DNA from: a virus
Length of the DNA: 23,026 bases
IMG/VR virus record: IMGVR_UViG_3300022591_001066
Span: 1 to 23,026 of that record
Direction: 5' to 3' (one strand)
The notes under the pieces were generated by a model that was not told the DNA's origin, did not search any database, and worked only from the letters and a program-made list of their open reading frames with translations. Positions 741 through 21,666 of this stretch are shown here, piece after piece. A program made the translations under genes and the position numbers. Position 1 is the first letter of the stretch. Each line of letters opens with the position of its first letter.

Positions 741-2126
741 ATGTCACTTCTGATTTCAGGTTTTCCGAGCACTGTCAGCGCAATCGTCCAGGATCGCACT
801 CTTGAGCGTGTCTTCCATGACGCGGCCTATCCTCTGCTCCTATGGAGGGGAGAGGCGGTGCCGGAGAAGTGGCAGGCCAACATTGGTGAGCGGCAGACCT
901 TCACCCGCGTTGGGTTGATGGAAGCTGATGTTGATCCAATCGACGCTGGTAATGACCCCACGGTTGGGGAGTACTCGACCGAGCAGTGGCAGGCAGAAGC
1001 CAAGCAGTACGGCAAGACCCGGCCGACGCATCTTCCGACCAGCGCAATCGCCATCGCGCCAACCCTGCTGCGCGACACTCAGCAACTCGGTCTCCATGCT
1101 GGCATGACTATGAACCGGCTGCCCCGCAACCGAATCCTCCAAGCCTACGGAACCGGTGACACGGTGACCACGGCGGCAACCACCTCGGTGACCGTCATTC
1201 CGGTGGCGTCAGTGGCCGGTTTCACGGAGCAAGTCCAGAACGGCCTTTTGATGCCCGTCTCCGTCACCAATCCCATGGTGGTGACGTTCTCGACGGCGGA
1301 GCCCGCCAATACGGTTGTTGGCTTCCAGGTGAATGACCCGCGCCGTCCATTCGGTGCCGGATCGCTCATTCTTGGTGCCGCGACCTCGGGCGCCGTGGCT
1401 GCGCGCGTTGGTGTTCGGGCCGCTACGCGTTCCCCGATCTACCGCGTGGGCGCCGGGGGGACTGTGGACGGAATCACGGCGGCCAACATCGTAACCCTGC
1501 AGGACATCATCAACTGCGTGGCCTACATGCGAAACAACCGTGTTCCGCCGCATGCTGACGGCACCTACCATTGCCACTTGTCTTCGTTCGTGGAAGCGGC
1601 GCTCTTCGGGGACAACGCGGTGCAACGCATGTACCAGTCGATTCCGGACAACGTTCCGTTCCGGGATCTGATCATCGATCGGAAGGTTAGTTGCACGTTC
1701 TATCGCAACACGGAAATGCCGAGCCTGACGACCACGCATCCCTTGTACCGACAGACGGACGCGGGTGGTGCGGGCGGCGCAATCCTCGCGCAGGAGTTTG
1801 GTGCGGAGATCGTCAATGCGAACGGCGTGCCGATTCAGCGCACGATCATCACTGGTGGCGGCGTGCTCGTCGAGAAGTACATCGACGAAAGCCTCTTCAT
1901 CAGTGAGGCTGGCGTGACTGGCAAGATTGGCGAGTTCTCGATCGTCAACGGTGGCGTGGCGGTGATGTTGGACCGCATCCGCTTCATCATGGCTGCCCCT
2001 CTGGATGCCCTGATGCAGACGATCCGCCAGTCCTGGTCTTGGTCTGGCGACTTCCCGACCCCAAGCGACGCGCTCACGGGCGGCCCGGCTCGGTTCAAGC
2101 GCGCACTCGTCATCGAGAGCGCCTAG
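741..2126 (+). CDS. Major capsid protein (HK97-fold, N4 gp56-like)
   Basis: This 461-residue protein is the likely shell subunit of the head. Around residues 262-300 it has a pattern typical of the N4 gp56-type capsid family: a helix, then NNRVPPHADGTYHCHLSS, then a helix containing FGDNAVQRMYQ. The C-terminal third has alternating Gly-rich loops and beta strands ending in a segment like those of HK97-fold coats. Length and the downstream run of head-completion genes agree with this role. The ATG at 741 has a GGAG at 728-731. The gene stands apart from its neighbours, with 143 nt upstream and 87 nt downstream, a promoter-like site before it and a strong hairpin after it, as expected for the most abundant virion protein. 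The family assignment is by recognition only. Confidence 0.72.
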   Translation: MSLLISGFPSTVSAIVQDRTLERVFHDAAYPLLLWRGEAVPEKWQANIGERQTFTRVGLMEADVDPIDAGNDPTVGEYSTEQWQAEAKQYGKTRPTHLPTSAIAIAPTLLRDTQQLGLHAGMTMNRLPRNRILQAYGTGDTVTTAATTSVTVIPVASVAGFTEQVQNGLLMPVSVTNPMVVTFSTAEPANTVVGFQVNDPRRPFGAGSLILGAATSGAVAARVGVRAATRSPIYRVGAGGTVDGITAANIVTLQDIINCVAYMRNNRVPPHADGTYHCHLSSFVEAALFGDNAVQRMYQSIPDNVPFRDLIIDRKVSCTFYRNTEMPSLTTTHPLYRQTDAGGAGGAILAQEFGAEIVNANGVPIQRTIITGGGVLVEKYIDESLFISEAGVTGKIGEFSIVNGGVAVMLDRIRFIMAAPLDALMQTIRQSWSWSGDFPTPSDALTGGPARFKRALVIESA

Positions 2127-2136
2127 TTCAGAAAAG

Positions 2137-2185
2137 CAACGGGGCCCCGGTAGTTCTTGCCCCCTCTGGCTATCGGGGCCCGTTG
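2137..2185 (+). terminator. Strong hairpin after the capsid gene, possible terminator
   Basis: The left arm CAACGGGGCCCCGGTAG (2137-2153) pairs with CTATCGGGGCCCGTTG (2170-2185), with a one-base bulge and a 16-nt loop. The stem is very GC-rich. The usual U-run after the stem is missing, so it may be an attenuator or a 3' end stabiliser rather than a full intrinsic terminator. Confidence 0.5.
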
Positions 2186-2213
2186 TCTAAGCAGGGGGCT
2201 TGTTTGAGGAACC

Positions 2214-2825
2214 ATGGCTGAACCGCATCTGTTAGACGGCGCTCCGAGAGAAGAGCTGGAAGGGCTGCCTTACGACGCACTGAGGGACTACCACGCTCAT
2301 CTTGGTGGGCGCGGGAGCCCCAAGAAAGTGGTTCTGATTGACCAAATCTTGGAGCTACGACAAGGGGAGCTCAATGGACGGGCAGCGATCGAATCGGCAA
2401 TCGAAGCCAATGGAGTGCCCGACGAAGACGAAGCGGAGCCCCAGGTCATCTCACCCGAGGCCGCGAGGAAGTTCAGTAGTGCCACCGACGACGCGATCCG
2501 TGAATGGCTCGTTCGTCGTCCCGACGCGCGGCAGTGTCTCATCGACTACGCGCGGGACGAGCTTTCTCGCCGCGCGCAAGAGAAGCAACGACGCGCCGAG
2601 ACGGAAGCCCTCAAGTCTCCCGGGCCCCCACAATACGTGGTGACCAAGGGCGGCCGCATCGCCATGGGCGGGATGTTCTATCAGGTGCCAGTCGGTTCTG
2701 TGATCACGGAGGCGACGCATGATTTTGAACTTCTGCGTTCACAGGGCATTGAGGCAGAAAGAGTCAGGGCAACTCACACTGAGTTCGATCAACTTGGAAG
2801 AGCTGTTACCAAAGTCGATCTGTAG
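2214..2825 (+). CDS. Head-completion protein with SAP/HeH-like N-terminus (putative)
   Basis: The protein has 203 residues. Residues about 15-50 (LEGLPYDALRDYHAHLGG followed by KKVVLIDQILELR) look like a small helix-extended-helix fold of the SAP/HeH/Rho-N type, which binds nucleic acid. The middle is acidic, then charged and helical. Residues about 153-186 (GGMFYQVPVGSVITEATHDF) form a short beta-rich module, with a central Gly-Val-Pro turn, of a kind I recall from small proteins encoded just after phage capsid genes. The start is supported by GAGGA at 2206-2210. The place between the capsid and neck genes suggests a role in head completion or the DNA-filled neck. The exact function is not recognised. 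Confidence 0.45.
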   Translation: MAEPHLLDGAPREELEGLPYDALRDYHAHLGGRGSPKKVVLIDQILELRQGELNGRAAIESAIEANGVPDEDEAEPQVISPEAARKFSSATDDAIREWLVRRPDARQCLIDYARDELSRRAQEKQRRAETEALKSPGPPQYVVTKGGRIAMGGMFYQVPVGSVITEATHDFELLRSQGIEAERVRATHTEFDQLGRAVTKVDL

Positions 2826-2827
2826 TC

Positions 2828-3235
2828 ATGGCCTTCACGCCGCACCAACAGGCACGAATCAAGCACTTCTTGAAGTATCCCGCGTGGGAATCGATGACCA
2901 ACGGGATCTTCCTGGGGGTGCCCGAAGGTGCGCAGGCGATGTATCTCGTCGAGCAGAGCTTCCGACGATTGGCCGCGGAGGGCGAGGAATCCGTCATCGA
3001 AGACCTTGATGAGTGCGAGCGTGTGGAGTGCCAGATCAAGGACGCGCGCAAGCGGCTCAAGGCCAAGAAGCTTGGGGACATGGTGGTGAACCCCGACGAG
3101 CTTCGCGATCTGAAGGTGGAACTCGAGGAGTGGCGCCAACGGCTTTCTGACGATCTTGGTGCCCCCATCAATCCCTACACCCTGCAAAACCCCAATGGCG
3201 GTGCGGGTGGCATCAACGCCCGAGTGGTTGGCTAG
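2828..3235 (+). CDS. Small helical protein of the head-neck region, unknown function
   Basis: The protein has 135 residues. It starts 2 nt after the previous stop (TAGTCATG), so it is probably translationally coupled. It is mostly alpha-helical and highly charged, with a long amphipathic stretch at residues about 55-110 (ERVECQIKDARKRLKAKK, then LRDLKVELEEWRQRL) that could form a coiled coil. A Gly/Asn-rich tail follows. I recognise no catalytic motif. Size, helicity and gene order fit a head-tail connector or adaptor, but this is inference from position. Confidence 0.4.
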   Translation: MAFTPHQQARIKHFLKYPAWESMTNGIFLGVPEGAQAMYLVEQSFRRLAAEGEESVIEDLDECERVECQIKDARKRLKAKKLGDMVVNPDELRDLKVELEEWRQRLSDDLGAPINPYTLQNPNGGAGGINARVVG

Positions 3236-3236
3236 G

Positions 3237-3335
3237 ATGGCAGATCCGAGCCAGAACCCGCGGGACCCGACCCCAAACACCGATCGGCGCCTCGCGCCAA
3301 TCGAGGATCGTGTCGTCTGCGGGCAGTCCATGTAG
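3237..3335 (+). CDS. 32-codon ORF in frame with the next gene and ended by an amber codon
   Basis: ATG at 3237 follows the preceding TAG by one base. The ORF runs 32 codons with G/C-rich third positions (24 of the 31 codons after the start) and stops at TAG 3333-3335. The next gene continues in exactly the same frame, with its GTG at 3345. This could be a short coupled peptide, the detached N-terminus of a once 209-residue protein, or coincidence. The TAG also forms the first bases of the promoter-like box TAGCCT used to explain the GTG start. I have no family match. Confidence 0.25.
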   Translation: MADPSQNPRDPTPNTDRRLAPIEDRVVCGQSM

Positions 3336-3338
3336 CCT
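3333..3338 (+). promoter_or_regulatory. TANNNT -10 box placed for a leaderless start at GTG 3345
   Basis: TAGCCT at 3333-3338 is followed by exactly 6 nt and then GTG. A weak -35 candidate, GTGTCG at 3310-3315, lies 17 nt upstream. No Shine-Dalgarno sequence precedes the GTG. The same 6-nt spacing recurs before the genes at 13507, 19430 and 22468. Confidence 0.4.
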
Positions 3339-3344
3339 TCGCTC

Positions 3345-3866
3345 GTGGATGAGCTGGGCGAGGTTGCCGACGATCTTCGCCAGCTAATGACGGACTTTGG
3401 AGCGCGGCCGTACCGCATGTTCTCGGTGATCGTGTCGTGGGACGGGGGTGAGGTTGGGAGAGGAACTCAGCGGATTCTTCGAGAAACCGAGCTACTTCCA
3501 ACTCCCTACATCGACATGTCGGTGCTCCGCTACAACGTGGTGTCAGGCGGACGCAGCGATAGCGGCTCAACCAAGGTTCTTGAAATCTCGCCGCGCTACA
3601 CCGAGTTTGAACTCGAGGAGATGTTCCCACGAGAACTCGCGCTTCACGAGCAAGCCTTCCTCGAAGTGCGCATGGATGGGCGTGATGGGGCGAAGCCGCT
3701 TCGGCACCGCTTCGCCGTTGTTGGTCTTCCGGCGCGGGACGCCACCGGTTTTCAGTTCACGATGGCCGTCTCGATCCAGTTCGAAGAGCGCACTCCTGAC
3801 GGATTCCTGAGCGAGCGAGTCAAGACGGAAGACGTCAACCCTCTTACCTTGGGGATGCCCCAATGA
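3345..3866 (+). CDS. Neck/head-tail joining region protein, unknown function
   Basis: The protein has 173 residues from a GTG start; an in-frame stop lies 9 nt upstream, so no longer version is possible without reading through TAG. The sequence begins with a short helix (ELGEVADDLRQLM). It then becomes beta-rich, with a segment FSVIVSWDGGEVGRGT and a following LLPTPYID that I associate with small myophage structural proteins between capsid and tail genes. No enzyme motif is visible. It overlaps the next gene by 4 nt (ATGA), which implies coupled translation and shared assembly. A neck or head-tail joining role is inferred from position only. Confidence 0.42.
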   Translation: MDELGEVADDLRQLMTDFGARPYRMFSVIVSWDGGEVGRGTQRILRETELLPTPYIDMSVLRYNVVSGGRSDSGSTKVLEISPRYTEFELEEMFPRELALHEQAFLEVRMDGRDGAKPLRHRFAVVGLPARDATGFQFTMAVSIQFEERTPDGFLSERVKTEDVNPLTLGMPQ

Positions 3867-4474
3867 CGCGCACCATTTCCGTGCGGGACTTCATGGGGCT
3901 CGTCAAGAGCTTGCCGCCACAGATTGAGGCCGCGGCCGTCAAGGGTATCCGTTCGGCAGGGCTTCGCGGTGTCGGGGAAGTCGTTCGGCAGATCGATCAC
4001 GCCGAACCCTACCCAGCTGTCGACACGGGGGCGATGCGCCAGGCGGTTCTTTCTGAGCCGATTGTAGGCGGCGCCATGCTGAGCGTGGGCACTCCGGAGG
4101 CGCCTTGGATGGAGTTCGGGACACGCCCGCACATGCCCCCTCTTGGCCCGATTCTGACGTGGGTACAGCGGAAGTTCGGGCTGGCGACGCAGCGCAGAGG
4201 CAAGCGAGCGCAAGGGAAGCGTGGCTCCAAGGAACGAAAGCAGGGGCCCGCCATTCCGAAGCACATCCGGGCGGCACGGCGCTTCGATCGCGCCAGCAAG
4301 ATGCAGAATGACGCGGCGCAGGCCTACTTGATCGCGAACAAGGTGCGCTGGAAGATCTTCCGGTACGGAACTGCCCCACGCGGTTACTTCGCCAAGGCAA
4401 TGGTCACGATCCGTTCGAAGTACATGCCACAGGAAATCCGGCACGAATTGAAAGCCCTCGAAAGGCGGCTGTGA
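3863..4474 (+). CDS. HK97 gp10-like neck/tail-completion protein
   Basis: The protein has 203 residues. Residues about 50-105 show the pattern of the HK97-gp10 / virion-morphogenesis group: a helix, then AVDTGAMRQAV, then a strand with a Val/Gly-Thr turn, then PWMEFGTRPHMPP and a tryptophan-containing helix. Proteins of this group join the tail to the head connector or finish the tail end. The region about 110-150 is strongly basic (many Lys and Arg) and longer than in compact members, and may contact DNA or a partner. The start overlaps the previous stop as ATGA. The family assignment is by motif recognition without a search. Confidence 0.62.
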   Translation: MTRTISVRDFMGLVKSLPPQIEAAAVKGIRSAGLRGVGEVVRQIDHAEPYPAVDTGAMRQAVLSEPIVGGAMLSVGTPEAPWMEFGTRPHMPPLGPILTWVQRKFGLATQRRGKRAQGKRGSKERKQGPAIPKHIRAARRFDRASKMQNDAAQAYLIANKVRWKIFRYGTAPRGYFAKAMVTIRSKYMPQEIRHELKALERRL

Positions 4475-4615: not shown

Positions 4616-5320
4616 ATGCCGGTTGGCGCGCTTCTCCAGGCCGATGTCGGGGCACGACGCATGCCTCTGGCCATTCCGCGCCTCATGGAACCGCGTGATG
4701 CGGCCGCCATTGCCTTGTGCAAGTACCTCGAAGCCGCGGTGTGGACGGTCCGAGCGAAGGACAGTACCAAGCAGACCAAGTTCAAGCTGAACTACTGCAA
4801 TCCGGAGTGGCCCAACGAGGATGACGAGATCAACTACCCTTGCGCAGCGGTCACGGTGATCGCCGAAGAACGCGATGCCCACAACTTCGTTCCAACGATC
4901 ATCGAGGATAGCTGGAACAAATACGCTGCAAATTCAGTGCTTTGGAAGACGAGCGAGCGGGATATTCTCTTCCAGGTCGACTTCTGGGTAACCAACAAAC
5001 CTGAGCGTCAGGCCATTGCCGCTGGTCTCGATGAGTACTTCTGTCCAACCGAGATTCGCTACGGAGCGATGATCGAGGGGCCGAGTGAGTACTGGTCACA
5101 ACCGGTGCGGTTTGTGCTCGACTCCGCCCGAGGAACCGAGCGCCTGGATAACTCGGCGATGGTTTTCGGACGCGACCGACGATTGCTTGCTAGAATACGA
5201 GCGAGCATTGACGATTTGCAGCTTCATGTGGCAATGCCACTCGACCCGCGAATTTCGATGTCAGTAGACGATGCCCCACCAGAGATTGTTTTTCCAAGAT
5301 CAACGGAGCCAAGACCATGA
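4616..5320 (+). CDS. Putative tail terminator/tail-completion protein
   Basis: The protein has 234 residues, starts 2 nt after the small basic gene, and overlaps the following fibre gene by ATGA. An N-terminal helix (DAAAIALCKYLEAAVW) is followed by several strands. These include a segment describing INYPCAAVTVIAEE and a strand-rich middle with LFQVDFWVTNKPERQAIAAG and a helix. This resembles the alpha/beta layout of tail terminators and T4 gp15-like completion proteins, which cap the tail tube and sheath and dock to the neck. The order gp10-like gene, this gene, then tail genes supports such a role. The evidence is fold-level and positional. Confidence 0.4.
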   Translation: MPVGALLQADVGARRMPLAIPRLMEPRDAAAIALCKYLEAAVWTVRAKDSTKQTKFKLNYCNPEWPNEDDEINYPCAAVTVIAEERDAHNFVPTIIEDSWNKYAANSVLWKTSERDILFQVDFWVTNKPERQAIAAGLDEYFCPTEIRYGAMIEGPSEYWSQPVRFVLDSARGTERLDNSAMVFGRDRRLLARIRASIDDLQLHVAMPLDPRISMSVDDAPPEIVFPRSTEPRP

Positions 5321-6876
5321 CGCAACGTGAACGCACTCCAACCCAAATCCAGTCGGACATCGAAATCGTTCGCAACGAGATTGGGAGTGGCGCCAACTCT
5401 GCTGCAAGGATTGCTCAGTTGGTGGAAGACATCTCGAACAATGGGCAGCCGGCTTCCAATACTGCCTATCTTGCTCAGACCGCTTGGTTCCTGTCGTCCA
5501 CCGGAAATGACACAGCTGACGGCCAACAGGCGTCGCCACTGATGACCGTGAAACAACTCAACCGGCGCATCTGGTGCACAGCGGGACAGCTTGCCGCGGT
5601 AACGACAATCACCTTTGCTGGGAATCATCCTGGTGGCGCCCTGACGGTTCAAGTCGCCCCCAACAGTCCGTTGGTGCTGACCGGAACCCCGACTGTGCTT
5701 GCCACGGACACTTGTGGCACCTACACGAACGCATCGAGTGGAACCAATCGGTACGTGCTTCTGACGGGGACGACGATCACGGACTGGACCCCCTACGTTG
5801 GAAAGCGCTTGCGGATCACGGTGGGTACTTACGCCGGGGCCGTAAGTTGGGTGATGGCGGTCACTCCCTTCGGTTTGGGTGTCGCCACGGCTAAGATTAC
5901 AGTGCCGACGCAAGAGCCAACTGCGCTCAACGGTTGGGTGGTTACTGGAAATACGGTCTTGTCCAGCGGCAACACCGTTGTTGTTGAATCGCTTCCGGTT
6001 ATTGATCAACAGCTTGTTGATGTGCTCTCGTCGAATGACGACACGCTGCTGGCCGCGGCGGTTCCTTCTTTGGTGGTCAAGAACCTGACGTTGACCAAGT
6101 GGTCGCATCGTGTGTCCGGTGGGCTTTCCAGTGCGATGTTCTGGGGCTGCAAGACCGGAGCGCTCAGCTGCCCAGGGGCTACGCAAGAAACCCTGCTTTT
6201 CGTCGGCTGCTTGTTGAGTAGTCCCTCTTCAAAGCTCGTGGGGGCCAGCTACTATCATTGTGGCGTATTGAAACCGAGTGGCTCTGGGCTTTCGCAGTAC
6301 CAACTGTCCACTCTAGCAGATTTCAACCACATGACATTCGAGGGGGTCGGTTTATTGGTGAAGGGCGCCCAAGCAACTTTCACCAACTTGAACATCGACA
6401 ACGCTTCCGGGACTGGTCTCGAGGTTGGATCTGGAGGAAGGTTCATCGCAACCAACACGGGGCTAAGCGGCCAAGGAAATAATGGTTTTGGTGTCTCGGT
6501 AGAGAAAATTTCTGGCTACTTGGAGATCTGGAGTTCAGGGACGTCAATCACGGGAACTAGTGGCGCTTGGGCTTTCAGTTTCGTTTTGGCGATGGCGTGG
6601 ACTGATGCGCCGCGGTGTTACGGGCGAGGAAGAACTTCGGCACAAGCGCTCTCGTCGGGAATCGCTTCATTTACCATTCCAGATCTTCCGCCAACCGCGA
6701 ACTTCAGCCCGGCGTACGCGGTTCCCAAGTCAGGTGTAACCGGCGTGCTTTACCCAGCCAATGCGGCAACATCGACGGTTGAGGTGCGCTCCTCTGACCT
6801 AACCGACAGCACTTCGACGGTGACGATTGGCTGGGAATCTGGGCAAAATGGAATGGTGGCGAAGCACGCCACCTAA
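5317..6876 (+). CDS. Tail fibre/spike with beta-helix features
   Basis: The protein has 519 residues. Residues about 10-46 form a helical module (IVRNEIGSGANSAARIAQLV) shared with the next gene and probably an attachment or trimerisation piece. Residues about 57-80 (WFLSSTGNDTADGQQASPLM) match the typical entry to phage right-handed beta-helix spikes, where a Gly-Asn-Asp-x-x-Asp-Gly motif precedes the helix. The body is rich in short Val/Thr/Asn/Gly strands with regular turns, including a rung-like part around residues 330-400. The C-terminus is beta-rich and could be the receptor-binding tip. I see no clear catalytic residues, so depolymerase activity is only possible. The first codon overlaps the previous stop. 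Confidence 0.6.
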   Translation: MTQRERTPTQIQSDIEIVRNEIGSGANSAARIAQLVEDISNNGQPASNTAYLAQTAWFLSSTGNDTADGQQASPLMTVKQLNRRIWCTAGQLAAVTTITFAGNHPGGALTVQVAPNSPLVLTGTPTVLATDTCGTYTNASSGTNRYVLLTGTTITDWTPYVGKRLRITVGTYAGAVSWVMAVTPFGLGVATAKITVPTQEPTALNGWVVTGNTVLSSGNTVVVESLPVIDQQLVDVLSSNDDTLLAAAVPSLVVKNLTLTKWSHRVSGGLSSAMFWGCKTGALSCPGATQETLLFVGCLLSSPSSKLVGASYYHCGVLKPSGSGLSQYQLSTLADFNHMTFEGVGLLVKGAQATFTNLNIDNASGTGLEVGSGGRFIATNTGLSGQGNNGFGVSVEKISGYLEIWSSGTSITGTSGAWAFSFVLAMAWTDAPRCYGRGRTSAQALSSGIASFTIPDLPPTANFSPAYAVPKSGVTGVLYPANAATSTVEVRSSDLTDSTSTVTIGWESGQNGMVAKHAT

Positions 6877-6888
6877 CAGAGAGGAAGC

Positions 6889-7251
6889 ATGACCTATCGA
6901 GTCTCAGCAGACGTTCTCGCGGAGATCGCGGCCGTTCGCGGCGAGTTCGAGGGAGGGAAGAACTCCAAGGAGCGCATCGCTCAACTTCTTGAAGATCTCT
7001 TGAGCAATGCGCGCCCAATCACCGGAACAGTCGATTTGTCAAATCCAGACGCTTCGGACGTGAACATCCCGGGGATGCCGGACGGCGTGCTGATCTCGGC
7101 CTGCTACGTGAGGGCGCAGCCGATGGCCACAGGTACCCCATTCATTCGACGATATCCGGGATACCCATCTTACCTAACGTTGTTTTCGGTGTTGTCTACA
7201 GATCCGTACGACAAAACTAGCATTTTGGGCTGGGAAGTGAGGCTTCCGTGA
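6889..7251 (+). CDS. Short protein sharing the fibre N-terminal module
   Basis: The protein has 120 residues and is preceded by GAGGAAG. Residues about 8-45 (LAEIAAVRGEFEGG, then NSKERIAQLLEDLLSN) align with residues about 11-46 of the upstream fibre, keeping the V-R, E, N-S, R-I-A-Q-L and E-D spacing. The remaining 75 residues are Pro/Tyr-rich and probably beta, and are not recognised. Its stop overlaps the GTG start of the first peptidase by 4 nt (GTGA), so the two are likely made together. It may be an adaptor fixing the peptidase to the same place on the tail as the fibre. Confidence 0.55.
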   Translation: MTYRVSADVLAEIAAVRGEFEGGKNSKERIAQLLEDLLSNARPITGTVDLSNPDASDVNIPGMPDGVLISACYVRAQPMATGTPFIRRYPGYPSYLTLFSVLSTDPYDKTSILGWEVRLP

Positions 7252-8540
7252 GCCAGCCGAGCGGGAACGGTAGCTTGTTGCCTCCAGTGCTGGTGCTCAA
7301 TGACAGCATTCCTGGGGTGACGCCGTTCGATTGGATCATCACCGGGGAAGGCTACCAACAACAGTACCAGGCCTGGTTTTTCCACAAGTACGCGTCCGCG
7401 ATGTACGATCTTTTTCGAGCCCAGAGTCCGCTCAAGGGGCGTCGTATTTCATGGCGTGTCTTTTTTCTTCCCAGCTGTTCAACTGATCAGGGCGTATCGA
7501 ATGATCCGGCATTCCCGGAGTGGCCCACACGCCGAACGATGTACGGGTTCGACCATGCGGACAATTCGTACGACACGGCGCTTCTGTCGGCCAATTTGAT
7601 TACTGCGCAAACAGCACTTGGTCTCTCGACTTCCTTTGGGATTATGCTCATCAATTCGCGAGGCAAGGAAGGCCGTGCTGAGGTAGTCGCGCAGAAGATG
7701 GTCTTCGCACCAGTTGGGGACGGCTACGACGGGAGCGAACGCGTTTTTGTCCACGAATATGGCCATTTGCATGGATTGCGGGATGAGTACACACACAATC
7801 AGACTGGCAGTCTGGAACCGGTCTATCCCAACGTGACTCTGAACACCGATCGGGCAAGTCTAAAGTGGCTGCGGTTGGTGAACACGCCCGTTTCTCCTTG
7901 GCCCACAGACATGACGCTGATGCCGAACACGTTGTTACCAGGCGGCACCGATTGGCCCGAATCAATCGCTTTGAGTGATCCTTTCCCACCGAATGGTGTC
8001 GGGCTTTATCGGGGCGCTTACGGCTGGGATAACGCCTACCGCCCTTCGCACGATTGCACCATGCGCAAGGTGGAGTTTCCGTTTTGTGCTGTCTGCCAAA
8101 ACCACCTAGAAGGTGAATTCGCCCCCTACATCGCGGGCGACGTTGCTCCCTACGAATATCGAGCATTTGGCTTCAACACATTGTTGGGCACTGGGGCTAA
8201 GTGTTGGTTGATGCCTAACATCCTTGAGCCGATCAACTACAACCCTCCGGCAGCCTCAAGCTTACTTGGCTCGAAGACGGTGCAACGGGCGGGCACCATC
8301 GACTATCTGACAATCACTCTGGAAGTTCCGCTCACTGGAACTACGTTTGATTGCTACATCGAAATCAACGGGAACCAACAGAATACTTCTCAAGTGCATA
8401 TTGGCTCGGGAGCTAACTTTGGTATTGCTTCGGGTCTAGGGCTTGGAGTGTCCATTGACGACAAGGTGTCGATCAGCTGTACACCAAGCACCAGCTCGTC
8501 CGCCTCGATTCGAATGCGCGGTCACATTGGGGTGCATTAG
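7248..8540 (+). CDS. Zinc metallopeptidase, M64-like, copy 1
   Basis: The protein has 430 residues from a GTG start overlapping the previous stop. Residues 169-181 read HEYGHLHGLRDEY, the zinc-binding HExxHxxGxxD pattern (likely ligands H169, H173, D179; catalytic E170), followed by the L-x-D-E-Y typical of peptidase family M64 (IgA-peptidase type). Upstream, WIITGEGYQQQY and ISWRVFFLPSCSTDQG match the family's N-terminal part. Downstream, a Cys-rich box (C270, C280, C283, as CTMR and FCAVCQNH) also fits M64. Residues about 338-430 are a beta-rich domain that may bind a receptor or anchor the enzyme. There is no signal peptide, consistent with a virion component. The substrate is unknown; a host surface protein or glycoprotein is plausible. 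Confidence 0.78.
   Translation: MSQPSGNGSLLPPVLVLNDSIPGVTPFDWIITGEGYQQQYQAWFFHKYASAMYDLFRAQSPLKGRRISWRVFFLPSCSTDQGVSNDPAFPEWPTRRTMYGFDHADNSYDTALLSANLITAQTALGLSTSFGIMLINSRGKEGRAEVVAQKMVFAPVGDGYDGSERVFVHEYGHLHGLRDEYTHNQTGSLEPVYPNVTLNTDRASLKWLRLVNTPVSPWPTDMTLMPNTLLPGGTDWPESIALSDPFPPNGVGLYRGAYGWDNAYRPSHDCTMRKVEFPFCAVCQNHLEGEFAPYIAGDVAPYEYRAFGFNTLLGTGAKCWLMPNILEPINYNPPAASSLLGSKTVQRAGTIDYLTITLEVPLTGTTFDCYIEINGNQQNTSQVHIGSGANFGIASGLGLGVSIDDKVSISCTPSTSSSASIRMRGHIGVH
7827..7911 (+). repeat. 85-nt perfect repeat, copy in peptidase 1
   Basis: These 85 bases are identical to 9120-9204 in the second peptidase, at an offset of 1293. They encode PNVTLNTDRASLKWLRLV and the following NTPVSPWPTD, just downstream of the zinc motif. 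Flanking sequence of the two genes differs at many synonymous sites. Confidence 0.95.
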
Positions 8541-8549
8541 GGACGCGCC

Positions 8550-9824
8550 ATGAGCCAACCAAGCGGAAATGGTAGCCTGCTTCCACCTTGTGTGCTGCTC
8601 AATGACAGCATTCCTGGGATCACGCCGCTTGACTGGCTTGTGACAGGTGACGGTTTCCAACAGCAATATCAGGAGTATTTCGCGCAAAAGAAAGCGCGCG
8701 AAATATATGACTACATTCGATCGCAAAGCCCATGGAAAAATCGGCGCATCTCGTGGCGCGTCTTTTTCCTGCCGGCATGTTCGACGGATCAGGGGATTTC
8801 TCACAGTCCCCAATATCCGGAATGGCCTATTCGCAAAACCATGTACGGTGTTGATCAAATCAACGATTCGTACGACGTCTCTTTCATAACAAAGAGAATG
8901 ACCGCGGCGGAAGTTGCACTAGGAATTTCTGGCTCGAAGCGCATTCTGTTTACAAATACTTCAGGAAGCAGCGCGAACGCTGGCGCTGTGCTCTATGCGC
9001 CTATCGGAAATGAGGTTTTGTCTGGAGCGCGAGTATTCCTTCATGAATATGGACACACACATGGTTTGGCGGATGAGTACTTCCTTGGAGGCGCCGCGCC
9101 GTCGCATGAACCAGATGCGCCCAACGTGACTCTGAACACCGATCGGGCAAGTCTAAAGTGGCTGCGGTTGGTGAACACGCCCGTTTCTCCTTGGCCCACA
9201 GACAATAGCGATCCGGCTCTACTCGATTCCATTTCAATCTGGCCACCGATCACGCCGTCATCTGATCCGTTTCCTCCAACTGGCGTCGGGTTGTACCGCG
9301 GGGGCTTTTATTCGAGCAGCGTCTATCGCCCTTCCCACAACTGCAGGATGCGCGGAGCCGATTTCCCCTTTTGTGATGTTTGCTCGAACCATCTGGAGGG
9401 TGAGTACGCTCCCTACATCGCGGGCGATGTTGCACCGCATGAATATCGCCCATATGGCATCGATTCACTTGGAGGGACGACCAATAAACGTTGGTTGGGC
9501 TTCGATGTTCTCGCGAATGCGTTCGCAGTACCCGTGACAACAAGTCTGCTCGGCGCGAAGACGATTCAGCGCGCAGCGACGATTGATTATCTAACGATCG
9601 CTTTGAGTGCGGCAATAAGCGGGACCGCGCTTGATTGCTACATCGAAATCAACGGAGTACAGCAAAATACCTCGCAGGTCCACATCGCTTCCAATGGAAT
9701 TTTTGGCACTATTTCGAATCTCGGGCTTGGTGTCGCGGTGGGCGACAAGGTATCGGTGAGCGTTACGGCAAGCACGACATCGACTGCCAGCGTTTACCTT
9801 CGCGGTCGAGTGGGGGTTCACTAG
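8550..9824 (+). CDS. Zinc metallopeptidase, M64-like, copy 2
   Basis: The protein has 424 residues and is a paralogue of the gene directly upstream, starting 9 nt after it. It keeps every key element: WLVTGDGFQQQY near the N-terminus, the zinc motif HEYGHTHGLADEY at residues 165-177 (H165, E166, H169, D175), and the Cys box CRMR with FCDVC (C265, C275, C278). The C-terminal beta-rich domain of about 90 residues is also kept. The copies differ most in the segment before the zinc motif and in the loop after the shared PWPTD, where substrate choice could lie. Codons look more A/T-rich than in copy 1. Both active sites appear intact, so neither copy is an obvious pseudogene. Confidence 0.78.
   Translation: MSQPSGNGSLLPPCVLLNDSIPGITPLDWLVTGDGFQQQYQEYFAQKKAREIYDYIRSQSPWKNRRISWRVFFLPACSTDQGISHSPQYPEWPIRKTMYGVDQINDSYDVSFITKRMTAAEVALGISGSKRILFTNTSGSSANAGAVLYAPIGNEVLSGARVFLHEYGHTHGLADEYFLGGAAPSHEPDAPNVTLNTDRASLKWLRLVNTPVSPWPTDNSDPALLDSISIWPPITPSSDPFPPTGVGLYRGGFYSSSVYRPSHNCRMRGADFPFCDVCSNHLEGEYAPYIAGDVAPHEYRPYGIDSLGGTTNKRWLGFDVLANAFAVPVTTSLLGAKTIQRAATIDYLTIALSAAISGTALDCYIEINGVQQNTSQVHIASNGIFGTISNLGLGVAVGDKVSVSVTASTTSTASVYLRGRVGVH
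9120..9204 (+). repeat. 85-nt perfect repeat, copy in peptidase 2
   Basis: This block is identical to 7827-7911. The first mismatch on each side is immediate (G for T before, A for T after). Perfect identity inside two otherwise diverged genes points to gene conversion or a recent recombination tract. Confidence 0.95.
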
Positions 9825-9837
9825 CTTTCAGAATTTC

Positions 9838-9866
9838 TGCAAATCGGCTATCAACCCAGCTACAAT
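9838..9866 (+). promoter_or_regulatory. Possible promoter of the sheath-tube unit
   Basis: TACAAT at 9861-9866 matches five of six bases of the consensus -10 box. The -35 candidate 17 nt upstream (TGCAAA at 9838-9843) is poor. A start near 9873 would give a leader of about 17 nt containing the Shine-Dalgarno AGGAGA at 9878-9883, well spaced for the sheath ATG. It lies in the 65-nt gap after the peptidases. Confidence 0.4.
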
Positions 9867-9889
9867 GACTCTCGGTTAGGAGACACATC

Positions 9890-12139
9890 ATGTCCGGATA
9901 CGTCCGCAGATTTACCGAAGTGCCCACCCTCGAAGTGATTCGGGAAATCGAGGGGCTTGTCATCATCGATCTGGCTCCGCCTGCTCCCGCTACAGGCGCC
10001 GGGACTGGAACTGTCCTACTCGTTGGCGAATGGGAGGACGGCTACTTTGCGACAGACGACGCCGCGCAAGGTGCTGTCGAGGTGTACGGTTCTGGTGACT
10101 ACAAGCACAAGTTTGGTGGTTTTGGCTACACCTACAACGACGTCAAGGCATGCCATCCATCGGCGCGCAAGTCGCTGGACGAGCACTGGAACGGCAACGG
10201 TTGGCTGAAGTCCTTCGGGTTGAAGGCGGCCCGTCTGCTTATTGCTCGCGTGGACACTTCGGTGGGCGAGGTGATGCTCTCTCCTTACGCGACCATCATG
10301 GGTGGAGCTGGGCCTTGGCAGCTTGCCGCGGCGGCGCAGCTGAGCGTGACGAGCAACATCGGCACCGGGACGACTGCTGCCCTGACCGCGGGAGCAGCGA
10401 CCGTGACGGGTACGGGGGCAGCGTTCAACACCATCGTTTCCGGCGATTCGGTAGGGATCCAGATCGATGGCGGGAAGTCGCAGAAGATCGTCTTTGGTTC
10501 GACCGACACGACGATTTCAGCTGTGGCTGCTCGATTGAACGCTTTCCTTGGAGCGGTCATCGCGAGCAACACCGGGGGACAGCTGACGCTGACGGGTCTT
10601 CGTCACGGAACCGGCGGATCCTTGGTGCTCACCGAGACCACCGCGGGCGTGTTGGCTAAGCTCGGACTGACTGCTAATACCTACGCAGGGACAGGCAACG
10701 TGGGGAACCTCGATGCTGTCACGGCTACAGAGGTCGCGGGACTCATCAACGCCTCAGTGTCGATGGGCGCTGCCAACGTGGCGGCGAAGATTGGCCCAGA
10801 CGGCAGCCTGTGGGTCTACAACAACGTCTCGGCTGCTTTGTCTTCGGTGAGTATTGGGACGGGCGTAGGTGGGATGGCGGCAACGCTTGGGTTCGCGATC
10901 GGTGTTGCGAGACTCATTGCGGACAACGGCAGCGGCACGATTCCGGCTGGAACTCGTGTTCGAGCATCGGGACTCACGACGTTCGACACCACCTTCGATC
11001 ACACCTTCGGCGGCGTGCTTATGCCGGCAGAGTGGGTGACGATGCAGACCCTCGACATCCCCGAAGGGGCATCGGGTCCGTTCTCAGTGCGTGTGCGCCC
11101 GGGGCTCGACAACGGAACTCACGTTGGGGCAGCCGTAGGGACGATCAACACTCTGGTCGATGTCCCCTCTTTCGCTGCCTTCGGTGTCAGCAATCCCGAG
11201 GCCTTGTCCGCGGCGCTGACTGAGGGACAACGGGACGCCTGCTACAAGGAGGCCCTTGACGCAACGCTGAACGAGCTTGGGGCGTGCCGCGAAGCGAACT
11301 ATCTGCTCATCGCCCGTCGCTCTGATTCGACGGTGCGAGAAGGCCGAGCCAACGCCATGCAGGCGACGGAGATCGGGATGTTCGGGCGCAAGTTCATCAC
11401 TGGCGATCCGCTCGGCACGACTCCGGATGGTTCGATCGTCAATGTCCAGCTGTACCGGCGCGACCGGCTCTTCTACGCGGCTCTGGGCCTCAAGGTGAAA
11501 GTGCCAGTGATTGCTGAGCGCGGCGCTGCCGGCGGCTCGGGTTTTACCGCGGACGGCGTGATCACAGTGCGCCCCGATGGGCCACTGACGACCATCTGCG
11601 CCACCCTGCCGCCCGAAGAGAACCCGGGGCAGCAGACGGGGCTGATCGACGACTTCTTTGCGGTGGACGCCGCGGGGTCCTCAATTTCGATCGACACCTA
11701 CAAGGCGTTTCGCCGGAACGGCATCTGCGCCCCGCGCATCGACCGCACCGCGGGGACCATCTTCCAGTCTGGCGTGACCTCAAGTCTCATCTCAGGGGAA
11801 GAGAACATTGCTCGGCGCCGAATGGCGGATTTCATCCAAGACTCGGCAATCGGTGTGTTCCTTCCGTACTGTAAGCGTCTGAACAAGGAGTCGAACCGTT
11901 CCAAGCTGTTGGGCAAGTGGAACCAGTTCCTCTCCGGCCTCAAGTCAGCGGAGAACGCTGAGAAGAGCCGGATCTTCGACTACTCGACAGACGATGGGGT
12001 GAACGCTGGGAACACGTCCGCTACCCTTGCGCTCGGCGTCTACTACGTGTTGACCAAGGTCAAGACCCACCCGTCCATGGACTTCATCGTCCTTCAAACC
12101 GAGATTGGCGAGAACGCCATCATCACCCGCACCCTGTAA
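9890..12139 (+). CDS. Contractile tail sheath protein with an inserted domain
   Basis: The protein has 749 residues. The C-terminal part is sheath-like: FRRNGICAPRIDRTAG, then QSGVTSSLISGEENIARRRM, ADFIQDSAIGVFLPY, and a final domain with TKVKTHPSMDFIVLQTEIGE. The N-terminal part contains LLIARVD at the end of the first domain. Between residues about 150 and 345 lies an extra Gly/Thr/Ala-rich region that looks like two hook-IN-type repeats (about 205-265 and 275-345). This makes the protein longer than the roughly 400-660 residues common for sheaths. A good AGGAGA precedes the start. The tail tube gene follows, the classical order. The inserted part is probably exposed on the outside of the tail. 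Confidence 0.85.
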   Translation: MSGYVRRFTEVPTLEVIREIEGLVIIDLAPPAPATGAGTGTVLLVGEWEDGYFATDDAAQGAVEVYGSGDYKHKFGGFGYTYNDVKACHPSARKSLDEHWNGNGWLKSFGLKAARLLIARVDTSVGEVMLSPYATIMGGAGPWQLAAAAQLSVTSNIGTGTTAALTAGAATVTGTGAAFNTIVSGDSVGIQIDGGKSQKIVFGSTDTTISAVAARLNAFLGAVIASNTGGQLTLTGLRHGTGGSLVLTETTAGVLAKLGLTANTYAGTGNVGNLDAVTATEVAGLINASVSMGAANVAAKIGPDGSLWVYNNVSAALSSVSIGTGVGGMAATLGFAIGVARLIADNGSGTIPAGTRVRASGLTTFDTTFDHTFGGVLMPAEWVTMQTLDIPEGASGPFSVRVRPGLDNGTHVGAAVGTINTLVDVPSFAAFGVSNPEALSAALTEGQRDACYKEALDATLNELGACREANYLLIARRSDSTVREGRANAMQATEIGMFGRKFITGDPLGTTPDGSIVNVQLYRRDRLFYAALGLKVKVPVIAERGAAGGSGFTADGVITVRPDGPLTTICATLPPEENPGQQTGLIDDFFAVDAAGSSISIDTYKAFRRNGICAPRIDRTAGTIFQSGVTSSLISGEENIARRRMADFIQDSAIGVFLPYCKRLNKESNRSKLLGKWNQFLSGLKSAENAEKSRIFDYSTDDGVNAGNTSATLALGVYYVLTKVKTHPSMDFIVLQTEIGENAIITRTL

Positions 12140-15473: not shown

Positions 15474-16754
15474 ATGGGAATTGGGCTAGATGGGTTCACG
15501 TCCGCGGTCAACGTAGCGCTAGACAAACTCAGGTTGCTCGATGGCCCTGGAGGCGCCCCGATCCCTGGAACCTCGATGATGATCGAGGAGACCCACGGCG
15601 GACACAAGATCGTGCTTCGCGATCGGTCGATGCCATTTCAAGGTGTCGAGTTTGGAGTGGAGGCACGGACCAAGAAGACGATCTACCCGGGAAATCCCGC
15701 GGCATCGATTCAGGTGCTTGGGTTCGACAATCTAGATCTTCCTCTCGAAGGCGAGTGGAACTACCGTTTTTTGAAGCACTCCGTCACAGTGGACGGTGAC
15801 CCAGACCAGATCAAGACTCCGGCTCAGCTTGTCGCTCTGTTCGATCGAATGTGCCGTGCGGGGCGACAGTTGCGCGTCCAGTGGATGAACGCCGTTCGTA
15901 TTGGGGTGCTCAAGGAGTTCATTCCGAAGTGGGACCGGGCCAACGATGTCAAATGGACGATGAAGTTCGAATGGTCCGTGGCAGACGACGAGACTCCTCC
16001 GTCCCCGCCGATTGCAGTGCCAGGTTTTGGCCTTTCGGACTTCATGAAAGCGTTGAACTTCCTTGAGGACTGCTTGGCGATCGGTCCCGATCTGATGCGT
16101 TCGTTCTCGGCCGCAATCGTGAGCAATATCAAGGAAATCCGCGGGAAGATCTCGAAGGTGATTCAAGCCTTCGGGGCTATTGAAGCGCTGGTGAATCTTC
16201 CAGCAACCATCCTGGGCGCAATCGATGCGGCAATCTCGTCAATCGCCGACGAGTGCAGTGAGATGATCCGACGGTGTTCGGGGCCGCGCCTCTCGTCGCG
16301 TAGCGCCTCAATCGTGGCCATTGCCGCTCTGCCGCTGAGCGCCAACCCTTCGATGCCGGGAGGGAACGGCGGAAAGGGCGCGGTTCAGTCGTCAGCCACG
16401 CAACAGACCACCATCGAGTCATGGTCGCGAACAGTGGCGCGGGCAGCAAGCGATCTGCGCCACCAGGCCATCATGATTGGAGTGCAGCTGCGGGCGCAGG
16501 CGTACCACGAGGCGACCCGCCAAGCCACGTCTCGCGAGGGAGAGACGCTCTGGTCGATTGCGGCTCGTGAGTACGGTTCAAGCGACTACGCGAGCTACCT
16601 GGCGCAAGCCAATGGTTTGCAGGGCGCCATGATTCAGGCTGGCACCACGCTGAAGCTGCCGCCGCGTCCCTATGGCGCTGCCATTGACGTGGAACTCACC
16701 GCCACGGAGCCCCCGGTCATCACCCTGACGAACCCCGGAGCGTGTCAGGTCTAG
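15474..16754 (+). CDS. LysM-containing tail/baseplate protein (XkdP/gp53-like)
   Basis: The protein has 426 residues and starts 2 nt after the tape measure stop. Residues about 352-399 form a LysM domain (SREGETLWSIAAREYG and later QAGTTLKLPPRP). The N-terminal half is beta-rich, with QGVEFGVEARTKKTIYPG and a run RIGVLKEFIPKWDRANDVKW then FEWSVAD. I associate this with tail proteins encoded between tape measure and hub in PBSX/Mu-type tails. The middle is helical and Ser/Ala-rich. A LysM may bind peptidoglycan or, as in several baseplates, serve as a structural module near the hub. Gene position strongly supports a baseplate or tail-tip role. Confidence 0.72.
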   Translation: MGIGLDGFTSAVNVALDKLRLLDGPGGAPIPGTSMMIEETHGGHKIVLRDRSMPFQGVEFGVEARTKKTIYPGNPAASIQVLGFDNLDLPLEGEWNYRFLKHSVTVDGDPDQIKTPAQLVALFDRMCRAGRQLRVQWMNAVRIGVLKEFIPKWDRANDVKWTMKFEWSVADDETPPSPPIAVPGFGLSDFMKALNFLEDCLAIGPDLMRSFSAAIVSNIKEIRGKISKVIQAFGAIEALVNLPATILGAIDAAISSIADECSEMIRRCSGPRLSSRSASIVAIAALPLSANPSMPGGNGGKGAVQSSATQQTTIESWSRTVARAASDLRHQAIMIGVQLRAQAYHEATRQATSREGETLWSIAAREYGSSDYASYLAQANGLQGAMIQAGTTLKLPPRPYGAAIDVELTATEPPVITLTNPGACQV

Positions 16755-20682: not shown

Positions 20683-21666
20683 ATGTTCAAGATTGATCAG
20701 GACGGAAGACCAGCGGGCCAGATCAACCGATCGCGAACCGACGGCAGTCTTACGGGCACCGTAACTCTGACCTACGTTGGGATCGGGACATTCCGTCCGA
20801 GATTTCTCTGGGTGCCCTTGGGCGACACGGGCGGCATCAACACGCTTCACGAGGACAGTCCTGGAGTTTGGAAGTTCACTCCGACGGGCTACAAGCCTGG
20901 AACCTATCGGATCGAGGGAATCGAGAACGAGGGGAAACCGTCAGAGAAGCGCTTGGTGCGGTTGTTCCGAATTCGCACCGCCAATGGGCTCATCATCCCG
21001 GCGTACGGCGAGCGAGCCAACCTTCTGGCCAACATCCAGAACGCGACACAGACCCAGATCGATGAGAGTGAGGACAATGCGCTCGATTATCTCGATCCAG
21101 CGTTGAATCAGATCCCTTGGGCTGGGTGGCTCAAGGGATACCTGGAAAATCTCAAGGTCTTGGATGCAGCGCTGAACCAGCCACTCAAGATCTACGTCGG
21201 GGCCTCGTATTTTGGAATTATTGCAAACTGGAAATTGACTGGTTTGGTGAGCTCACCGGTCTTGAGTTTGTCTCAATCGGGAAGCACAACCAATTTTCCA
21301 GTGGTGTGCGAGATCAATGCACTGATTCCTGCGCAAGCGAAAACCATCACGGAAATCGGTCTGATTTACAACGGATCTAGCGGTCATGTTGCGTTACCGG
21401 CAACGATGCCCAGCTTCAAACTGCAATCGGTTGCGGCTGCATCAGTTTCTGTGGCCCCGGATCCGGTTGACTTGATTTCGGTGGTAGATGCCAGTGGAAC
21501 TGTTCCGGTATTTCAGAATGCGCATCAAATTCTCGGGACGGCTTCACCCGGAATAGCGATTGATATGACGTCTTACCGGTATTTTTTGAGAATAGAAGGG
21601 GAATCTGGGACTAACTCAATAGTGGATTGCCAGATTCCAAAAATCTGGTTCAAGATCTCATTGTGA
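20683..21666 (+). CDS. Tail fibre/baseplate adaptor-like protein
   Basis: The protein has 327 residues. Residues about 1-100 form a beta domain (SLTGTVTLTYVGIGTFRPRF and PGVWKFTPTGYKPGTYRIEG). Residues about 105-165 are helical: GERANLLANIQNATQTQIDE, SEDNALDYLDPALNQIPW and WLKGYLENLKVLDAAL. This is a pattern seen in phage fibre adaptors that present a helix bundle next to the baseplate. The C-terminal 150 residues are Ser/Thr-rich strands (SSPVLSLSQSGSTTNFPVVC) and could be a receptor-binding head. It starts 7 nt after the previous stop. The next gene has a GAGGAA ribosome binding site. Confidence 0.48.
   Translation: MFKIDQDGRPAGQINRSRTDGSLTGTVTLTYVGIGTFRPRFLWVPLGDTGGINTLHEDSPGVWKFTPTGYKPGTYRIEGIENEGKPSEKRLVRLFRIRTANGLIIPAYGERANLLANIQNATQTQIDESEDNALDYLDPALNQIPWAGWLKGYLENLKVLDAALNQPLKIYVGASYFGIIANWKLTGLVSSPVLSLSQSGSTTNFPVVCEINALIPAQAKTITEIGLIYNGSSGHVALPATMPSFKLQSVAAASVSVAPDPVDLISVVDASGTVPVFQNAHQILGTASPGIAIDMTSYRYFLRIEGESGTNSIVDCQIPKIWFKISL

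Follow-up and report, generated by a model that had tools for sequence, protein, structure and literature searches.

Two tandem metallopeptidase genes

The window analysed here, that is, the whole stretch of 23,026 bases, is the complete IMG/VR record IMGVR_UViG_3300022591_001066, a linear viral fragment. Its tail operon contains two adjacent genes, referred to as A and B, whose products are M64-type zinc metallopeptidases. The original prediction, made from the letters alone, had proposed two tandem open reading frames sharing a HEYGHxHGLxDEY-type motif and a cysteine box and lacking a signal peptide, and each of these elements was recovered. The features of the two genes are the following:

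7248-8540, + strand: enzyme A, M64-type zinc metallopeptidase, GTG start, 430 residues
7248-7286, + strand: N-terminal peptide of A, (M)SQPSGNGSLLPP, identical in B; candidate docking peptide
7752-7790, + strand: catalytic zinc motif of A, HEYGHLHGLRDEY, with H169, E170, H173 and D179, then E180 and Y181
7827-7911, + strand: 85-bp tract in A, DNA identical to 9120-9204 in B
8055-8096, + strand: Met-turn and structural-zinc cysteines of A, CTMRKVEFPFCAVC, with C270, M272, C280 and C283
8235-8537, + strand: C-terminal beta-rich domain of A, ~100 residues
8550-9824, + strand: enzyme B, M64-type zinc metallopeptidase, ATG start, 424 residues
8550-8588, + strand: N-terminal peptide of B, MSQPSGNGSLLPP, identical in A
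9042-9080, + strand: catalytic zinc motif of B, HEYGHTHGLADEY, with H165, E166, H169 and D175, then E176 and Y177
9120-9204, + strand: 85-bp tract in B, DNA identical to 7827-7911 in A
9342-9383, + strand: Met-turn and structural-zinc cysteines of B, CRMRGADFPFCDVC, with C265, M267, C275 and C278
9522-9821, + strand: C-terminal beta-rich domain of B, with weak, low-confidence fold resemblances

A and B are tandem paralogues with 59% identity over their full length. Synonymous divergence between them is saturated (dS 2.4) and non-synonymous divergence (dN) is 0.35, so that, as far as sequence comparison tells, both copies have been kept by purifying selection since an old duplication. The 85-bp tract is identical in the two genes against a nucleotide identity of ~60% around it, and gene conversion is probably the best explanation. 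Likewise, the first 13 residues agree at 13/13 positions against 59% overall, which is a weak observation as only two sequences are compared. Neither protein has a hydrophobic, signal-peptide-like start: no signal peptide was found in their first 60 residues, where the maximum 15-residue Kyte-Doolittle mean is ~1.2-1.3.

Enzyme class and predicted fold

Both proteins pass the cut-off (26 bits) of the Pfam profile PF09471 Peptidase_M64, with 78.3 bits (E 7.6e-22) for A and 85.1 bits (E 6.4e-24) for B, scores that place the match far beyond chance. A also retrieved 3p1v (E 7e-12) and 4df9 (E 6e-11) from the PDB by sequence. Scores against the M6 profile stayed below its cut-off of 22 (18.8 bits for A and 12.1 bits for B), the M60 and M66 profiles had no match among the window proteins, and no PHROGs family matched A or B.

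In the catalytic domain of IgAse (ThomasA), the type igalysin from Thomasclavelia ramosa, the active-site helix carries two histidines and the glutamate, and an aspartate acts as third zinc ligand followed by a family-specific glutamate and then a tyrosine; the first cysteine of the Met-turn CxMR, two further cysteines and a glutamate bind a structural zinc (PMC12237041). When the roles of the Met-turn and of the structural-zinc cysteines were assigned from this structure, every catalytic and structural feature listed for IgAse was found in A and B, including the ligands of both zinc sites, the Met-turn and the tyrosine. The igalysin series of third-ligand aspartate, glutamate and tyrosine appears as D179-E180-Y181 in A and D175-E176-Y177 in B, and the CxMR Met-turn is accompanied by two more cysteines in each protein. 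Igalysins are nevertheless defined by a motif with one additional residue ahead of the glycine, HExxHxxxGxxD (PMC12237041, PMC12402451); this residue is absent from HEYGHLHGLRDEY and HEYGHTHGLADEY, both of the form HExxHxxGxxD. The longer motif occurs in every Bacteroidota homologue of the fetched set in which the motif is readable, and the short form HExGHxxGLxDEY recurs in the M64 genes of two other viral contigs, L156 and L072. The spacing HExxHxxGxxD is the ordinary one among metzincins. Because their motif is one residue shorter than that of igalysins, A and B are short-motif M64-like metzincins, members of the family by profile and fold and not by motif definition. The initial assignment as M64-like zinc peptidases thus stands on profile, PDB sequence and fold, and igalysin membership is the part that calls for a caveat.

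A metallopeptidase fold of A and B is practically certain. B was modelled with AlphaFold2 from a 32-sequence alignment at a mean predicted local distance difference test (pLDDT) of 59.6, the catalytic core lying mostly at pLDDT 70-86 and the C-terminal third being poor. Foldseek searches with this modest model placed the Bacteroides M64 structures 9qdi, 4df9 and 3p1v at the top (E 1e-14 to 5e-13) and IgAse next (E 3e-10 to 2e-8), in agreement with the expectation that the protein would superpose on solved M64 folds. For the C-terminal domain of B, Foldseek against the PDB gave a weak resemblance to CBM35/CBM6 modules. The BFVD predicted viral structures held nothing at E 1e-3 or better for the B model; the weak matches were mostly short (~85-150 columns), many of them to fibre, spike, collagen-like and structural proteins, which would be consistent with a C-terminal beta domain, such domain matches being leads only. 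Searched separately, this domain gave the match A4, below the cut-off, in Pfam and chance-level matches only among PDB sequences, and its isolated model reached a poor pLDDT of 45.6.

The best matches in both sequence and fold are the Bacteroides M64 proteins BF3526/BACOVA_00663 (PDB 4DF9, 9QDI, 3P1V), in which the zinc motif, the Met-turn CxMR and the FCxVC cysteines follow in the same order. The Bacteroides enzymes differ from A and B by the longer motif HEFGHSFGGLADEY and by a beta-sandwich at the N-terminus, and a Bacteroides-type homologue (L071) has a signal-peptide-like start; A and B, in turn, carry a C-terminal beta domain that distinguishes them from the Bacteroides enzymes. IgAse shares with the pair the metzincin domain with aspartate as third ligand, the structural zinc bound by glutamate and three cysteines, the tyrosine after the motif and the beta domains behind (PMC12237041). 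It differs by its 12-13% identity to B in structural alignment, by its HExxHxxxGxxD motif and seven domains, and by being a bacterial cell-surface enzyme that cuts IgA. With its open cleft IgAse cuts folded protein, whereas BF3526, whose cleft is blocked and which has an N-terminal sandwich, did not cut intact IgA (PMC12237041, PMC12402451) and acts on the N-termini of pre-digested proteins (PMC12402451). The absence of the N-terminal sandwich from A and B suggests a putatively accessible cleft.

The tail-operon cassette and M64 genes in other viruses

The enzymes had been described as lying between a spike gene and the sheath gene. Their position in the tail operon is correct, and a further gene of 120 residues separates them from the spike. 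The surrounding genes are the following:

4616-5320, + strand: p4616, conserved tail-module gene to the left of the insertion; in relatives the sheath gene follows directly
5317-6876, + strand: spike/fibre-like protein, 519 residues, first gene of the cassette; weak right-handed beta-helix match
6889-7251, + strand: p6889, 120 residues, anchor-like N-terminal domain and short beta-rich part; candidate adapter
9890-12139, + strand: tail sheath gene, bounding the insertion on the right; weak match to phrog_23

A search with the sheath retrieved 66 related viral loci, which keep the same gene order where the sequence allows: major capsid protein (MCP), p2828, p3345, neck, p4616, sheath and tube. 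Across the 65 related contigs in which both p4616 and the sheath were recognised, the gap between these two genes has a median of 36 bp (-32 to 899), as opposed to 4,569 bp in the window, where four genes occupy it (the spike-like gene, the small p6889, A and B), the enzymes forming the second half. L005, which is the closest relative (MCP 75%, sheath 71% and tube 72%), has a collinear arrangement without the insert, and no M64 gene was found in 45 whole relative records. The GC content of the insert is 0.551 against 0.589, the genes of the cassette are co-oriented, and no promoter-like site above chance was found within the stretch. It is hardly to be doubted that a four-gene cassette was acquired here by insertion between p4616 and the sheath gene.

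The same p4616-sheath junction holds an HNH-type endonuclease gene in contig L033 (9245-9982), for which reason it seems prone to insertion. Contig L041 provides a second such site among these phages: there, the neck and p4616 homologues are separated by ~2.5 kb of fibre-like genes (1210-3712). Downstream in the window, the product of 20683-21666 is conserved with L005 in its first ~165 residues (62%) and not in the remainder, as would be the case for a baseplate protein whose tip varies, and the baseplate-region protein encoded at 15474-16754 carries a C-terminal LysM domain. The window sheath was not found in the phage and plasmid collections. The MCP is weakly related (26-31%) to its counterparts in Streptomyces phage Kromp and in Komagataeibacter phages, which is insufficient to assign the host.

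Within the cassette, residues 1-58 of the spike form an N-terminal, putative anchor domain common to p6889; over ~48 residues the two N-termini share 39.6% identity (E 1e-7). This shared N-terminus may be read as a virion anchor. Neither the spike N-terminus nor p6889 had a significant match in Pfam or PHROGs by which a T4gp10-like docking domain, as in a K1-5-type adapter, could be recognised, and scans of viral contigs and phage records found no homologue of the whole spike. The stop codon of p6889 overlaps the start codon of A (GTGA).

A pair of M64-type peptidases as probable virion components had been put forward as unusual, and the searches bear this out. Among 50,697 phage records searched at the protein level, the only match was one mislabelled bacterial sequence: INPHARED MT835510.1 (L071), labelled 'Bacteriophage sp.', was rejected as bacterial chromosome, Bacteroides-like over the part examined, with thyA/folA-like neighbours and a Bacteroides-type M64. 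Two strict-motif scans with profile checks over 2.9 million viral contigs brought up three further M64-bearing contigs (L156, L072 and L160), all above the PF09471 cut-off; because strict motif patterns miss variants, these counts are lower bounds. Three other strict-motif matches (L073, L074 and L159) were set aside, as no M64 protein was identified in them. In L156, a contig with terminase and portal genes, the M64 gene lies upstream of the terminase. In L072, a Mu-type contig with a transposase, it is split over two frames beside GemA (9227-10196). In L160 an independent phage M64 with a signal peptide and fn3 is located between fibre-like and lysis-type (DUF5675) genes (2222-3934, - strand). 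In none of the three do two M64 genes stand together in a sheath-type tail operon; phage M64 is, therefore, rare and not unique.

Viral contigs were scanned with proteins, alignments and the C-terminal domain, and L156 was the only close viral relative of A and B that was found. A first genome scan with A1 found nothing, and the scan with A2 returned at least 317 relatives, of which the best 80 are nearly all from Bacteroidota at 22-31%. The M64 tree does not resolve the origin of the pair, which is placed on a saturated branch. No mention of M64 together with phage was found in the open-licence library searched. An annotated M64 peptidase was also seen near a virB11 gene on the Sodalis plasmid pSG1 (L157, 1159-2262); it lacks the Cys box, and the glycine of its motif is replaced by histidine.

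Possible roles of the enzyme pair

The most likely site of action is the host surface, given that the genes belong to an adsorption-type cassette and follow the spike and p6889 with its anchor-like domain. Judged by gene position and architecture only, it is fairly probable that A and B are located in the virion. That they act as a virion-borne pair of zinc endopeptidases, cutting host surface protein during adsorption, is favoured with slightly better than even confidence, and the chances that the substrate is a host surface protein appear evenly balanced. According to this proposal, the N-terminal domain common to the spike and p6889 would fix these two to the tail and both enzymes would dock on one of them through the identical peptide MSQPSGNGSLLPP, while the C-terminal beta domain may trimerise or bind the host. 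At adsorption, the exposed proteases would cut a proteinaceous or glycoprotein layer, or a receptor, and so clear a path for the tail. A and B would probably differ in their substrate loops and attack two variants, as phage K1-5 does with two capsule enzymes.

In K1-5, the adapter gp37 carries the capsule enzymes gp46 and gp47 through conserved N-terminal peptides of 7 and 11 residues (PMC6872550). The window offers a likeness to this organisation: p6889, the putative adapter with its anchor-like domain, precedes two enzymes that begin with one and the same peptide; the difference is that the K1-5 enzymes are polysaccharide depolymerases and A and B metalloproteases. By this analogy, a branched tail apparatus with two short-motif metzincins on a shared adapter, cutting two surface-protein variants, can be entertained tentatively as a new strategy of adsorption, and such an apparatus might then, with the same reserve, be seen as a protein-directed counterpart of the dual capsule depolymerases. 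Several points weigh against the adsorption proposal. A and B do not themselves have the anchor-like domain of the spike and p6889, so their attachment is hypothetical; compared with characterised M64 enzymes their zinc motif is short by one residue, and for this reason their activity is not certain; the C-terminal domain has no confident homologue and its models are poor; and the signal peptide of the L160 protein suggests that phages can also use secreted M64 enzymes.

The last of these observations, together with the position of the L160 gene between fibre-like and lysis-type genes, the absence of an anchor domain from A and B and their late tail operon, fits a different account, in which non-virion late enzymes freed at lysis digest host surface or extracellular protein, such as biofilm matrix or receptors on vesicles or debris, so that progeny escape or avoid trapping. 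This is rather unlikely: A and B have no signal peptide, they are placed in the tail module and not near lysis genes, and they share an identical N-terminal peptide directly behind the spike and the anchor-domain protein, with the GTGA overlap. The short zinc motif could alternatively mean that both are catalytically dead M64 folds whose sole use in the adsorption apparatus is binding. This seems quite improbable, given that all catalytic and structural ligands are kept in both proteins despite saturated synonymous divergence and that the shorter spacing is an ordinary metzincin motif.

Two further accounts have very little probability, the second marginally less than the first. Intracellular proteases directed against host defence or regulatory proteins, carried as cargo in a late operon, would agree with the missing signal peptide and the accessory nature of the insertion; against this, genes in a late tail position are a poor fit for early defence, the C-terminal beta-rich domain weakly resembles fibre and carbohydrate-binding domains, and PADLOC, whose library holds few counter-defence proteins, gave no match. 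Maturation proteases, processing structural proteins in the course of assembly, would be at home in a structural operon, but relatives that share the head and tail genes, L005 among them, have no M64, so that processing by M64 is not required and an assembly role is unlikely; two copies would also be unexpected.

Nearly all descriptions of phage tail enzymes concern glycan depolymerases or cell-wall hydrolases. The word 'protease' does not occur in a review of the enzymes with which tailed phages breach the cell envelope (PMC6116005). The arrangement described here is real and uncommon, the enzyme class being solid and the virion role probable. Within the tail-building genes of a contractile-tailed phage stands a pair of protein-cutting enzymes that its relatives lack, and the short zinc motif of the pair widens the M64/igalysin definition. 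If the proposed role is true, a tail-borne pair of endopeptidases would constitute a way to open proteinaceous surface layers, would suggest protein receptors or shields for this uncultured phage group, and would provide a source of compact specific proteases.

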